Part shown: positions 44,329-48,919 of the stretch, one piece after another
Layout of the letters: every line of letters begins with the position of its first letter
Numbering within the stretch: the first letter of the stretch is position 1
Source of the DNA: Fulvimarina sp.
Lineage (GTDB): Bacteria > Pseudomonadota > Alphaproteobacteria > Rhizobiales > Rhizobiaceae
Direction: 5' to 3'
Length of the DNA stretch: 64,000 nucleotides
Assembly: GCA_002700095.1 (NCBI GenBank)
Contig: PACL01000039.1
Location: 1-64,000 of the forward strand
The notes under the pieces: model-generated
Databases searched by the model: none
What the model saw: the letters and a program-made list of their open reading frames with translations, nothing else
What the model was told of the DNA's origin: nothing
Translations under genes and position numbers: made by a program

Positions 44329-45072
44329 TCACATTTCGGGGCGGCGTGCCAGGACCATGTAGTTGACGTCCATGTCACGCGACATCCGCCATTCGTCGGC
44401 CAACGGGTGGTAGACGACGCCGGTCTCGTCGATCATCGACAGCCCGGCCGCCTCGACCGGCCGCTCGATCTCGCCCGGGCGGACCAGCTTGGCATATTGG
44501 TGGGTGCCCTTCGGCAGCCAGCCGAGGACGTATTCGGCGCCGACGATCGCGAAGGTCAGCGCCTTGAAGGTCCGGTTGATCGTCGCGACGAAGAGCAGCC
44601 CGCCGGGTTTCACCATGGCGGCGCAGGAGGTCAGGAACAGGTCGACGTCGGCGACGTGCTCGACGACCTCGAGCGCCAGCACCACGTCGAAGGTCTCGCC
44701 GCCGGCGGCGATGGCCTCGGCCGTCGTCGCGCGGTAGTCGATGGCAAGGCCCGATCCCGCGGCATGGATCTTGGCCACCTCGATATTGGTCTCGGAAGCG
44801 TCCGCGCCGACTACATGGGCGCCGAGGCGGGCCAGCGGCTCGGCGATCAGCCCGCCGCCGCAGCCGATGTCGAGCACCGACAGGCCCTCGAAGGGCTTCG
44901 GCTGCATGACGTCGCGGGCGAAGTTCGTCGCCACTTCCCGGCGGATGTAGTCCAGCCGGACCGGGTTGAACCTGTGCAGCGGCTTGAACTTGCCGGCGGG
45001 ATTCCACCATTCCTGCGCCAGCCGGGAAAAGCGTTCAACCTCGCCCGCGTCGATCGTCGTTGCGTCCGGCAT
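44329..45072 (-). CDS. ubiG: Ubiquinone biosynthesis O-methyltransferase
   Basis: 247 residues. It methylates two hydroxyls of ubiquinone intermediates. SAM motif I is [19 protein letters not shown], followed by the family-typical NPVRLDYIR near the N-terminus and [15 protein letters not shown]. In related genomes it lies beside lysC; here a four-gene cassette separates them. Confidence 0.95.
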
Positions 45073-45276
45073 CGATCCGTCCCGTTCCTTGCGTCGGGTA
45101 CGGATGTTCGGTCCGGGGCGGTGAAGTCAAGCACCTTTCAGAAACCGGGCTGATCCGTCGCGGTCCCTCGACGATGCGTAGTCGACCAGCAAGATTCGAT
45201 AGCCGACTCGGGAACGACCGGACCGGACGCAACCTTAACGACAGCCGATCCCGACGTCCGAAAGGTCTCCCCAGCC

Positions 45277-46449
45277 GTGTCCGCCGAAGCCGCTGAACCC
45301 TTCCCCCTGCATCGGCGGTCGCTGTCTCGCCGGGTCGGTGCGGCTCGCAAGAGCGGGAACGGCGCCTCCTCCCGGCCCCGCCAGCCGGTGGTGGCGGTTC
45401 CCGTGCGGGACGAGGTCCAGCGGATCGGCGGGCTGATCGACGCCCTCGGCCGTCAGACGTTCCTCGGCGACGGGTCGAACGTCCTGCCGGTCGTCCTCGT
45501 CTTCAACAACTGCACGGACGACAGCGCGGCGGTGGCGATTGCGGCGGCGACGGCCCATCCGCGCCTCGTCCTTCATCCGGTGGTGGTGGATTTTCCGCCC
45601 GCCTGCGCCCATGTCGGCTCGGCGCGCCGGCTCGCGCTCGACGTCGCCAGATCGCTCGTCGGCCATCCCGGGGACGCGGCGCTTCTCACCACCGATGCCG
45701 ATGCCCGGCCGTTCCCGGGCTGGGTCGAAGCCAATCTTTCGGCGATCGCCGCGGGAGCCGACGCCGTCGGCGGCCGGATCGTCGGGAACGCCGAGGAGGA
45801 GGCGCTGCTCGGGCCGCGCTTTGCCGAGCGGGCGCGGCTGCATCTCCTCTATGCCGCCTTGTGCGACGAGCTCTCCGCCCGCATCGATCCCCTCGCTCAC
45901 GACCCCTGGCCGCGGCATCAGGATCATACCGGCGGCAGCCTGGCGGTCCGCGCGGAATTCTACGACCGGGTGGGCGGGCTCCCCGCGGTGCCGAGCCGCG
46001 AGGATCTCGCCTTCGTCTCGCGGCTGCGCGCCGCTGGCGCCAGGCTGCGCCATGATCCCGCAGCCAGTGTCGAGGTGTCGGCGCGCACGGTGGGCCGGGC
46101 CTTCGGTGGCATGGCCGACTGCCTGCGCAACTGGGCCGAACTCGCCGAGGCCGAGGCGCCGCATGTCGTCGAGGCGCCGGCAAGCGTCGTCGCGCGGGCG
46201 CGCTTCAGGGCCGATCTGAGAACGGCCAGCCTCGCCGACTTCGGCGTCAATGGACCCTTTGCGGGCCGTCTCGACATCTCGTCGCGGGAATGGCGCGTGC
46301 GCCACGGCGACGGCAGCCTGCGGGGCTATCTCGTCGAGCAGCTGGCGCCCGACCTGCCCGACGCCCCGACGACAGTCCCCGTGGCCGAGGCGATCGCCGA
46401 GCTTGCCCTGCATCTCACCGCAGCCGAGGAGATCGTCCGTGCCGCATGA
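45277..46449 (+). CDS. Glycosyltransferase family 2 protein
   Basis: 390 residues, soluble (no membrane segments). GT-A fold with VAVPVRDEVQRIGGLIDALG, VFNNCTDDS, and the metal-binding DAD in LTTDADARP; the segment HDPWPRHQDHTGGSLAVRAE is a plausible acceptor region. GTG start at 45277. It is the first gene of a tightly overlapping cassette with an acyl-CoA dehydrogenase, PIG-L deacetylase and NodS-like methyltransferase. Donor and acceptor sugars unknown. Confidence 0.85.
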   Translation: MSAEAAEPFPLHRRSLSRRVGAARKSGNGASSRPRQPVVAVPVRDEVQRIGGLIDALGRQTFLGDGSNVLPVVLVFNNCTDDSAAVAIAAATAHPRLVLHPVVVDFPPACAHVGSARRLALDVARSLVGHPGDAALLTTDADARPFPGWVEANLSAIAAGADAVGGRIVGNAEEEALLGPRFAERARLHLLYAALCDELSARIDPLAHDPWPRHQDHTGGSLAVRAEFYDRVGGLPAVPSREDLAFVSRLRAAGARLRHDPAASVEVSARTVGRAFGGMADCLRNWAELAEAEAPHVVEAPASVVARARFRADLRTASLADFGVNGPFAGRLDISSREWRVRHGDGSLRGYLVEQLAPDLPDAPTTVPVAEAIAELALHLTAAEEIVRAA

Positions 46450-47548
46450 CCGCGATGAGAATGCGCAGGCCGATCCCCGGTGGCTGGCCCGACTGAGCGG
46501 GGAGATCGCCGCCGCGGTCGCCGCCTCGCCGGACCGGGACGCCTTCCCGGCCGAGGCCTTTGCGCTCCTGCGCCGCCACGGCCTCAGCGAGCGGCCGCCG
46601 GTCGCGAGCGGCTCCGGCCTTTCCCTGCTGCGCCTTCTCGCCGCCGTCGGGCGCGGCGACCTCGCCGTCGGACGCCTGTTCGAAGGGCATGTCAACGCGG
46701 TGGATCTGATCCGCCGCTTCGGCTCTGCCCGTGTCCGCAGCGAGGTCGGCGCGCAACTTGCGGACGGCGCTCTCCTCGGCGTCTGGAACACCGATGCACG
46801 CGGCGATCCGCTGCGCCTGGAAGGCGGGCGGCTCGCCGGAAAGAAGAATTTCGCCTCCGGCGTGGACGGTCTTTCGTCGGCCATCGTGACCGTGCCGGAA
46901 CCGGCCGGGCGGCAGATGTTCCTGGTGCGGCTGGCCGACGCGGCGGTCGACCGGTCGTGGTGGCGGCCCCTCGGCATGGCCGCTTCCGGCAGCCACATCG
47001 TCGACTTCTCCGGTCTTCCTCCCGAGGCCATCACACCCCTCGGCGAGCCCGGCGACTACATCGCCGAGCCATGGTTCAGCGGCGGGGCGATCCGCTTTGC
47101 CGCCGTCCATGTGGGTGGGATGGAGGCCGTGATGGATGCCGCCGTCGAGCACCTGACGAAGACCGGGCGCGCCGAGGATCCCCACCAGGCCCACCGGATC
47201 GGTCGCATGGGCCTGGCCGTCGCCAGCGGCAATCTCTGGCTGCGCGAGGCCGCCGAGGCCTGGGACGCGGCGGAGGCGGCGGCCGGAGCCGACCCGGAAG
47301 CCAGCCGGCTCCGGGCGACGGCGAACGGCTTCCGCTCGCTGGTCGAGCACTCCGCCATGAGCGTCCTCGAAGAGGCCGAGCGGGCCGTCGGGGCGGCCGG
47401 TTTCAACGCGCCGCACCGGCTGGAGCGGCTGATCCCGGATCTGCGCACCTATCTGCGCCAGCCCAATCCCGACGGCGCCCTGACCGCCTATGCGAAGGCG
47501 CTGGTCGCCGGCGAGACGGGGGCCGGCGGGTCGGGGATCGGCCGGTGA
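46439..47548 (+). CDS. Acyl-CoA dehydrogenase-like protein
   Basis: 369 residues from GTG at 46439 (GGAGATC upstream), overlapping the glycosyltransferase by 11 nt. It follows the acyl-CoA dehydrogenase fold: middle domain LLGVWNTDARGDPLRLEGGR ... KKNFASGVDG, and a C-terminal helical region. It lacks a clear typical catalytic Glu motif, so it may act as an oxidase, dehydrogenase or desaturase on an unusual thioester or sugar-linked substrate. Its presence with deacetylase and methyltransferase suggests tailoring of one molecule. Confidence 0.75.
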   Translation: MPHDRDENAQADPRWLARLSGEIAAAVAASPDRDAFPAEAFALLRRHGLSERPPVASGSGLSLLRLLAAVGRGDLAVGRLFEGHVNAVDLIRRFGSARVRSEVGAQLADGALLGVWNTDARGDPLRLEGGRLAGKKNFASGVDGLSSAIVTVPEPAGRQMFLVRLADAAVDRSWWRPLGMAASGSHIVDFSGLPPEAITPLGEPGDYIAEPWFSGGAIRFAAVHVGGMEAVMDAAVEHLTKTGRAEDPHQAHRIGRMGLAVASGNLWLREAAEAWDAAEAAAGADPEASRLRATANGFRSLVEHSAMSVLEEAERAVGAAGFNAPHRLERLIPDLRTYLRQPNPDGALTAYAKALVAGETGAGGSGIGR

Positions 47549-48270
47549 CGGGATCGCCCCGCCTTCTCGACCCGCGCGAGCTTGCGGCGGCGCGCGTCCT
47601 CGTCGTCGCCCCGCATCCGGACGACGAGTCGCTGGGCTGCGGCGGCCTGATGGCGATCCTCGCCGCCGGCGGAGCGCGGATCCACACCCTGTTCGTCACC
47701 GATGGCGGCGCCTCGCATTTGCGTTCGTCCAGCTGGCCCCGGGAGCGGCTTGCGGCGCAGCGCGAGGCCGAGGCGGCGGAGGCGCTGGCACGGCTCGGCC
47801 TCGGCCGCCATCCCCGCAGCTTCCTGCGGCTGCGGGACGCCGACATGCCGGCACCGGATTCGTCCGGATGGAGCGGGGCCCGCGACACGGTTCGCCAGCT
47901 GATTGCCTGTTTTTCGCCGGAGCTTGTGCTGCTGCCCTGGCGCCGCGATCCGCATCGCGACCACCGGGACTCCTGGCGTCTCGTGACGGACGCGATGGGG
48001 CTCGCCGGCTCGCCGGCACTGACGCTGGAATATGCGATCTGGCTCGACGAGCTTGGCGCCGAGGCGGACCGGCCGCGACCGGATGAAGGGGAGAGGGTTG
48101 CCGTCGACGTCTCCCACCTCCTGGCGGTCAAGCGGCAGGCGGTCGCGGCGCATGTGTCCCAGACGACGACGCTGATCGACGACGATCCGGAGGGGTTCCT
48201 CCTCACCGAGGCGACGATCCAGAGGCTGACCGGGCGGCTCGAGATCTATGTGCGCCCATGCGGCGGGTAA
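47545..48270 (+). CDS. PIG-L/LmbE-family deacetylase
   Basis: 241 residues. The zinc-binding motif is APHPDDESLGCGG (residues 22-34), and the second metal/catalytic region is DPHRDHRD. The family removes the N-acetyl group from sugars such as GlcNAc in glycolipids, mycothiol or bacillithiol precursors. GTG start overlaps the previous stop (GTGA). In this cassette it would free an amine for acylation or methylation. Confidence 0.9.
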   Translation: MTGSPRLLDPRELAAARVLVVAPHPDDESLGCGGLMAILAAGGARIHTLFVTDGGASHLRSSSWPRERLAAQREAEAAEALARLGLGRHPRSFLRLRDADMPAPDSSGWSGARDTVRQLIACFSPELVLLPWRRDPHRDHRDSWRLVTDAMGLAGSPALTLEYAIWLDELGAEADRPRPDEGERVAVDVSHLLAVKRQAVAAHVSQTTTLIDDDPEGFLLTEATIQRLTGRLEIYVRPCGG

Positions 48271-48854
48271 TCGATCCCGACGGCTTCGAGGCGCTGTTCC
48301 AGGCCGAGCCGGATCCGTGGGACTACGCCGCCTCAAGCTTCGAGCGGCAGAAGCGCAAGGTGCTGCTGGCGGGCTGCGGCCTGCGGTGCCGCGGCCGGGT
48401 GCTGGAGCTCGCCTGCGCCAATGGCGAGACCAGCGCGGCGCTCAGCCCCCTGGCATTGCGGCTTCTCGCCCAGGACGCATCGCCAACGGCGCTCCGCCAT
48501 GCGGAGGCCCGTAATGCGCAAAGCCGAAGGATCCGCTTCGTTCCGGGCATCCTGCCCCGCGACATGCCGCGCGGGCCGTTCGACCTGATCGTCGCCTCGG
48601 AAATCCTCTATTATCTGCCCCCGCGCGATCTCGCGGCCTGCCTTGCCGGCATCGAACGGGCGCTGGCGCCGGGCGGGCGCCTCGTCATGCTGCATCACGT
48701 CCTCGATTTCGCCGACGCGGCGACGCGGCCGGCACTGGCGGTCCGTCTCGCCGAGCGGGTCGCGGGACGCCGGCTGGTCCCGGCGCTCCGCCGCCGCACC
48801 GGCCGCTACGCGATGGCCGCCTTCGACAAGGCTTCCGGCGGGCCGCGATCGTAA
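48258..48854 (+). CDS. NodS-like SAM-dependent methyltransferase
   Basis: 198 residues. The N-terminus (DPDGFEALFQAEPDPWDYAASSFE) and class I motif VLELACANGETSAAL resemble NodS, which N-methylates deacetylated chitooligosaccharides; other members are uncharacterised. ATG at 48258 overlaps the PIG-L gene by 13 nt. A 17-nt-stem hairpin follows, closing the cassette. Confidence 0.85.
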   Translation: MRRVIDPDGFEALFQAEPDPWDYAASSFERQKRKVLLAGCGLRCRGRVLELACANGETSAALSPLALRLLAQDASPTALRHAEARNAQSRRIRFVPGILPRDMPRGPFDLIVASEILYYLPPRDLAACLAGIERALAPGGRLVMLHHVLDFADAATRPALAVRLAERVAGRRLVPALRRRTGRYAMAAFDKASGGPRS

Positions 48855-48870
48855 GCCTGTAGATGGATTT

Positions 48871-48919
48871 GCCTCGAGCCGCGCCCGCGGCGGGGCCTGG
48901 CACGGGCGCGGCTCGAGGC
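48871..48919 (+). terminator. Strong hairpin terminating the biosynthetic cassette
   Basis: GCCTCGAGCCGCGCCCG and CGGGCGCGGCTCGAGGC, a perfect 17-nt stem with a 15-nt loop, 17 nt after the methyltransferase stop. No T run. It isolates the cassette from lysC. Confidence 0.7.

Follow-up and report, generated by a model that had tools for sequence, protein, structure and literature searches.

The 64,000-nucleotide stretch of Fulvimarina sp. contig PACL01000039.1 analyzed here (the window) carries, between ubiG (44329-45072, minus strand) and lysC (from 49064, plus strand), a cassette of four overlapping genes that encode a glycosyltransferase (GT), a protein of acyl-CoA dehydrogenase (ACAD) fold, a PIG-L deacetylase and a methyltransferase (MT). 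An earlier note on this DNA had placed the cassette between ubiG and lysC, and both flanking genes agree; it had also given overlaps of 11, 3 and 13 nt, of which the first (GT/ACAD-like) and the third (PIG-L/MT) stand, whereas the second (ACAD-like/PIG-L) is in fact 4 nt (GTGA). The features of the locus are as follows.

45211-45236, plus strand: candidate general-stress promoter of EcfG/RpoE2 type (GGAAC, 17 nt, CCTT)
45277-46449, plus strand: GT2-like glycosyltransferase of GT-A fold, 390 aa, GTG start
46439-47548, plus strand: ACAD-fold protein (ACAD-like), 369 aa, GTG start
47545-48270, plus strand: PIG-L/LmbE (CE14) sugar N-deacetylase, 241 aa, GTG start inside GTGA
48258-48854, plus strand: NodS-like class I S-adenosylmethionine-dependent methyltransferase with a DPW signature, 198 aa, ATG start
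48871-48919, plus strand: 17-nt G+C-rich inverted repeat 3' of the cassette (arms 48871-48887 and 48903-48919)

The linkage of the four genes is conserved in other genomes, which shows that the set is more than a chance grouping; the possibility, raised in the earlier note, that they stand together in this genome only is contradicted by every set of loci analyzed. When the ACAD-like protein was searched in 61 genomes including the source genome, 16 places in 15 genomes were recovered, and the four genes are together in 15/15 of the other neighbourhoods. A scan of GTDB with the same protein confirmed 460 relatives, and among the best 80 of these 460 loci all four genes lie within 8 kb in 57, with MT present in 77, PIG-L in 64 and GT in 61, some of the gaps falling at contig ends. 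In a Pseudomonadota sample the ACAD-like gene occurs in 31 of 398 genomes, all 31 of which have at least one PIG-L gene somewhere; 21 of 29 neighbourhoods from this sample are complete, and MT, PIG-L and GT are present in 28, 25 and 22, respectively. The ACAD-like protein also matches 68 plasmid records, some of them other ACADs, and 12 of the 18 plasmid regions examined are complete. (The relatives, GTDB, Pseudomonadota and plasmid sets share a few genomes.) Complete four-gene sets are found in Cyanobacteria, Hymenobacter, Sphaerobacteraceae, Puniceicoccaceae and Deinococcus radiophilus; D. radiodurans has no GT nearby, and Rubrobacter no PIG-L nearby.

Two arrangements recur among the relatives: GT-ACAD-PIGL-MT in one direction, as in the window, and ACAD-PIGL/MT, in many cases as a PIG-L-MT fusion, towards which a GT gene converges. 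The PIG-L-MT fusions come from several genomes of the same family and from a Leeuwenhoekiella contig. In the GTDB scan the cassettes nearest to that of the window are those of Jiella endophytica, Jiella sp. LLJ827 and J. sonneratiae, which suggests that the source genome is itself a member of Jiella (Aurantimonadaceae), and in a quick tree of 107 ACAD rows, which carries long-branch warnings, the window groups with three Jiella rows (support 100) and the rows cluster by phylum (6 changes vs 24.8 in shuffles). A contig of a metagenome-assembled genome labelled 'Tatlockia' (L089) encodes an ACAD-like protein nearly identical to that of Chlorogloea (L083), and is probably a mis-binned cyanobacterial contig.

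Enzymes for sugar transfer, N-deacetylation and N-methylation had been proposed from the letters of the window, and these assignments hold up. The PIG-L protein scores 92.3 bits with Pfam PIG-L (cut-off 28.2), and its metal motifs, PHPDDE and DPHxDH, are intact and invariant in 15/15 rows; among solved structures it is closest to diacetylchitobiose deacetylases, TT1542 and BshB. In Rubrobacter indicoceani, where no PIG-L gene is nearby, a CE4 polysaccharide deacetylase gene lies 5' of the ACAD gene (L117 6856-7728), which fits de-N-acetylation as a needed step. The MT is recognized by Pfam NodS (46.5 bits, cut-off 24) and Methyltransf_25 (51.1 bits, cut-off 27); NodS is its closest named match in PDB (1e-25), behind an unnamed methyltransferase (4isc), and residues D19, P20, W21 and E29, common to the NodS structure 3ofj, are invariant in 16/16 rows. 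The GT is matched weakly by Pfam Glycos_transf_2 (20.1 bits, below the cut-off of 23.3), and its DxD and ED residues (D140, D142, E242, D243) are invariant in 40/40 rows. Its AlphaFold2 model (mean predicted local distance difference test score, pLDDT, 89.9) has the GT-A fold, for which TarS and chondroitin polymerase are the nearest solved structures (both Z 21.2), tied with the fucosyltransferase WrtF and the rhamnosyltransferase RmlT; with such ties at Z 21, structure does not single out the sugar donor.

In Nod factor tailoring NodB deacetylates and NodS N-methylates an aminosugar. The cassette resembles this system in combining de-N-acetylation of an aminosugar with N-methylation, and in the DPW signature common to MT and NodS; this likeness, the presence of a GT and the rank of NodS among the PDB matches speak for a Nod-factor-like signalling lipo-oligosaccharide, a reading suggested in the earlier note. 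It appears hardly credible. The cassette deacetylase belongs to PIG-L (CE14) and not to the NodB family (CE4), the MT reaches 53.9 bits with the NCBIfam NodS model NF041650 against a curated cut-off of 300, and no Pfam or NCBIfam hit named NodA or NodC was obtained for the four proteins at E values up to 1. The spread of the cassette far beyond rhizobia, to Cyanobacteria, Hymenobacter and Deinococcus, and the stress genes among its neighbours also speak against it.

A low-molecular-weight thiol pathway of bacillithiol or mycothiol type, foreshadowed in the earlier note as a thiol conjugate, was weighed as well. The deacetylases BshB and MshB belong to the PIG-L family, have the same metal motif and are, with the diacetylchitobiose deacetylases, the closest characterized relatives of the cassette enzyme; BshB1 is its closest NCBIfam model, and catalase genes are frequent neighbours of the cassette. 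However, the scores lie far under the curated equivalog cut-offs (BshB1, 73.7 bits vs 182.5; MshB, 30 bits vs 224.35), and the four genes include neither a thiol (cysteine) ligase nor a GT4 enzyme, the neighbours not having been searched for BshC or MshC; a thiol product is very improbable. Mycofactocin was likewise rejected, as MftF scores 32 bits against a cut-off of 280.

The remaining enzyme belongs to the ACAD fold both by profile (Pfam Acyl-CoA_dh_1, 32.2 bits vs cut-off 22.4) and by its AlphaFold2 model (mean pLDDT 93.2), and genes of its relatives carry the label 'acyl-CoA dehydrogenase' in public annotation. In an alignment with ACADs from its own genome, Gln341 occupies the column of the MCAD-type catalytic glutamate and Gly216 that of the IVD-type glutamate, and each residue is invariant in 57/57 rows; a shift by one column is possible, but R340 and P342, which flank Gln341, are also non-acidic. 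The conserved TEPGSGSD loop is missing from 16/16 aligned ACAD-like rows. Because both canonical glutamate columns and the loop are missing, the protein is probably not a functional acyl-CoA dehydrogenase, and the dehydrogenase acting on acyl-CoA that the earlier note had envisaged is not borne out.

The best NCBIfam model is instead SfnB or DszC in 9/9 homologues tested, always far below cut-off (430.9 and 850 bits, respectively): the protein of the window reaches 15.8 bits with SfnB and 19 bits with DszC, and the highest scores among 8 homologues are 86.9 and 73.6 bits. The structure search gives TdsC (Z 35.2) and DszC (Z 34.7), with true ACADs tied, so that the structure prediction suggested in the earlier note confirms the fold and does not separate monooxygenases from true ACADs. 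The ACAD-like enzyme shares its fold and its best profiles with the ACAD-fold flavin monooxygenases (SfnB/DszC/MsuC and the amino-sugar nitrososynthases DnmZ and KijD3), and differs from them in NCBIfam scores far below the cut-offs. SfnB and DszC carry out flavin- and O2-dependent oxygenation with a reductase. An assignment of the ACAD-like protein as an enzyme of flavin monooxygenase type is weakly indicated. In Deinococcus the ACAD-like proteins (L115, L116, L130) have an N-terminal extension of ~390 aa with sub-threshold matches only, to GH53 and GH42.

The candidate promoter ends 40 nt before the GTG of the GT gene and has CCTT in place of CGTT. The strict pattern GGAAC-N16-17-CGTT was found in 5/133 upstream regions, and two looser patterns in 14 and 31; GGAAC-N18-19-TT, a pattern of RpoE2 promoters, was chosen after these had been tried and is thus a post-hoc choice. 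Within 200 nt upstream it is present in 17/39 alphaproteobacterial loci in which GT comes first, where every one of the 17 loci with the word GGAAC also has the spaced TT; permuted decoys give a mean of 1.1 and a largest count of 8 (for GAACG, which overlaps the true word), and background windows give 88/7424. Of the remaining alphaproteobacterial loci 5/43 have the pattern (decoy counts average 0.55 and reach 3 at most), and of the loci outside the Alphaproteobacteria 0/44 (decoy average 1.2), two groups that had already been seen in an earlier pattern trial. Gene starts are approximate and loci not independent in these counts; 7 of the 133 regions were excluded from the groups (the duplicates L019-L024, and L186), the set did not include L073-L075, L115-L117 or L128-L131, and it contains repeats (L132 is the same as L031, and L176 apparently the same as L076). 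NepR, the EcfG anti-sigma factor, is encoded in the source genome, and a match to the motif lies upstream of its gene. According to PMC3892343, EcfG occurs in Alphaproteobacteria only; its motif is given as GGAAC-N16-CGTT (PMC3892343, PMC7083833) or as GGAAC-N17-20-GTT (PMC6599016), and the main texts of these three papers have 0 mentions of PIG-L, LmbE and acyl-CoA dehydrogenase. As judged from the upstream sequences, EcfG probably induces the cassette in many Alphaproteobacteria.

Genes of the EcfG general stress response (such as KatE, Ku and trehalose synthesis) have a promoter of the type proposed here for the cassette and are also among its neighbours. Within 10 kb of the cassette in the 31 Pseudomonadota genomes there are three catalase genes, three genes for the trehalose phosphatase OtsB and two for Ku, eight in 7 genomes against 0.61 expected from rounded genome sizes, 22-kb spans and hand-entered counts. 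Among 76 chosen neighbourhoods a catalase cluster is present in 10, OtsA in 5, OtsB in 4, sucrose-phosphate synthase/phosphatase in 4 and Ku, named from the annotation of the record, in 3; additional GT4, GT2 and GT28-like clusters occur in 6-7, and an ABC-ATPase cluster in 15. Many of the top clusters look like antisense shadow open reading frames, and 10 were named by Pfam. Extended loci with GT4, GT2 or GT28-like genes are L025, L027, L126, L181, L183, L185 and L201, of which L025, L027, L183 and L201 also have a member of the sucrose-phosphate synthase/phosphatase cluster; L128, from Burkholderia multivorans, is a different ACAD that has none of the other three genes with it, and was excluded from the clustering. 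As for extra genes that co-occur with the cassette, which the earlier note had proposed to look for, stress genes do recur; a constant transporter or acyltransferase partner does not appear among the named clusters, most clusters being unnamed.

These neighbourhoods bear on the main rival explanation, in which the cassette modifies a glycolipid or a sugar of the cell envelope, giving for instance an N-methylated glucosaminyl lipid, and so makes the envelope tougher under stress; the acceptor would then be a lipid, and the ACAD-like enzyme would act on an acyl chain. By sequence the GT matches, among other PDB entries, the undecaprenyl-phosphate sugar transferase ArnC (1.3e-5) and, at a weak level, a dolichol-phosphate mannose synthase (0.28); the further glycosyltransferases of some extended loci could also suit a glycolipid, as might the ABC-ATPase cluster (15/76 neighbourhoods), although it belongs to a large superfamily. 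However, no acyltransferase or flippase is found among the 10 Pfam-identified recurring clusters, and the ACAD-like enzyme is without the base and loop of acyl-CoA dehydrogenases; a glycolipid is a less likely reading than the one favored below.

An aminosugar glycoside produced during stress would suit the recurring combination of sugar transfer, deacetylation, N-methylation and flavin oxidation. We therefore favor, with a probability of about 0.5, the interpretation that the four genes act as a single enzyme cassette, widespread in bacteria, whose product is a small aminosugar glycoside, or a short glycoconjugate, that serves in general stress protection. The GT2 enzyme would transfer an N-acetylhexosamine to an acceptor, the PIG-L enzyme would then strip the N-acetyl group, and the NodS-like MT would presumably act next, methylating the freed amine; the ACAD-fold protein would oxidize the product, and for this step a flavin monooxygenase activity (N- or C-oxygenation) is likelier than that of an acyl-CoA dehydrogenase. 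The expected product is a de-N-acetylated, N-methylated, oxidized aminosugar glycoside, induced by stress, which may be protective to judge from regulation and neighbours only. The groups that carry the cassette include Deinococcus, Nostoc-type cyanobacteria, Hymenobacter, Aureimonas and Acinetobacter, and survival of drying or radiation is a known trait of several of them. More tentatively, the product could belong to a class of stress metabolites not yet described, namely aminosugar glycosides that are N-methylated and flavin-oxygenated (perhaps N-oxygenated) and whose synthesis is under general-stress control in Alphaproteobacteria. No description of the cassette, and no known product that would explain the four genes, was found in searches of an open-access library, which is weak evidence. 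If the interpretation is correct, trehalose and sucrose are joined in many bacteria by a further, common pathway to a protective metabolite, and the 'acyl-CoA dehydrogenase' label of these genes would be corrected.

Several observations weigh against an aminosugar glycoside made under stress control. The tie in Z between ACAD and monooxygenase structures, the sub-threshold NCBIfam scores, and the appearance of acyl-CoA enzymes as lower NCBIfam hits in some homologues make the oxygenase assignment weak. With respect to regulation, the promoter pattern has 2 matches in the 64-kb window vs 1.27 expected, which is not significant alone; 22/39 GT-first loci are without GGAAC-N18-19-TT within 200 nt; the strict motif is not enriched across the genome (45 matches vs 47 for a backward control); and in the source genome the katE and Ku loci are without the motif, and neither of the two matches at the OtsB locus precedes OtsB. 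The Poisson P of ~3e-7 for the stress-gene count is optimistic because the three families were picked after the neighbours had been seen, distances were judged by eye and the 31 genomes include several congeners. Finally, 13/80 GTDB loci, 12 of them from Methylobacterium or Beijerinckiaceae, have neither GT nor PIG-L nearby, and two Afifella loci have no PIG-L, so that the four genes need not always be co-encoded.

This last point also speaks for an alternative in which there is no single pathway, the cassette being a loose stress island of four genes that share their regulation and make different products. In the Methylobacterium/Beijerinckiaceae GTDB loci the ACAD gene keeps MT alone in 11/12, and none of the other three genes in the twelfth, and the position of GT varies among loci; in what is apparently the same genus (g61) of the Pseudomonadota sample, PIG-L is kept in 3/5 genomes and all four genes in 2/5. 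The PIG-L-MT fusions, the gene overlaps and the maintenance of the four-gene set across phyla argue against a loose island and render it improbable.

In 10 genomes of the genus Jiella the cassette lies between ubiG and lysC in 4, and ubiG and lysC are adjacent in 6; four of the six genomes with cassette-free sites carry the other arrangement elsewhere, and two are without any match. In one of the six (G004), where UbiG has 97% and LysC 99% identity with the corresponding protein of the source genome, the ubiG-lysC spacer (L217 1631-2082) retains a 90-nt scrap of the PIG-L gene (82% identical), from which it follows that the cassette was most likely lost there, and recently. The other five empty sites hold no PIG-L scrap, and the spaced promoter is found in none of the six; in G004 the place aligned to the -35 element reads GGATC when compared by eye. 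If the aminosugar glycoside reading is correct, the existence of cassette-bearing and cassette-free Jiella sister genomes makes the role of the cassette directly testable.

The hairpin with a 17-nt stem that the earlier note had placed at the end of the cassette does exist and folds well (z -4.4, with 0/200 shuffles as low). It is neither conserved nor terminator-like: no T-run lies 3' of the repeat, 0 terminator-like sites were found, and the gap between MT and lysC in 4/4 other cassettes (L035-L038) contains no perfect inverted repeat of at least 8 pairs with a loop under 30 nt. A role as terminator was rejected on these grounds.

The source genome has a second PIG-L gene outside the window (G000:C87:29507-29896), and no other cassette gene was found in the surrounding 19 kb. 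A second, weakly matching ACAD gene is located upstream in Methylobacterium loci that have the ACAD-like gene and MT but neither GT nor PIG-L nearby (such as L076, L080, L093 and L094).

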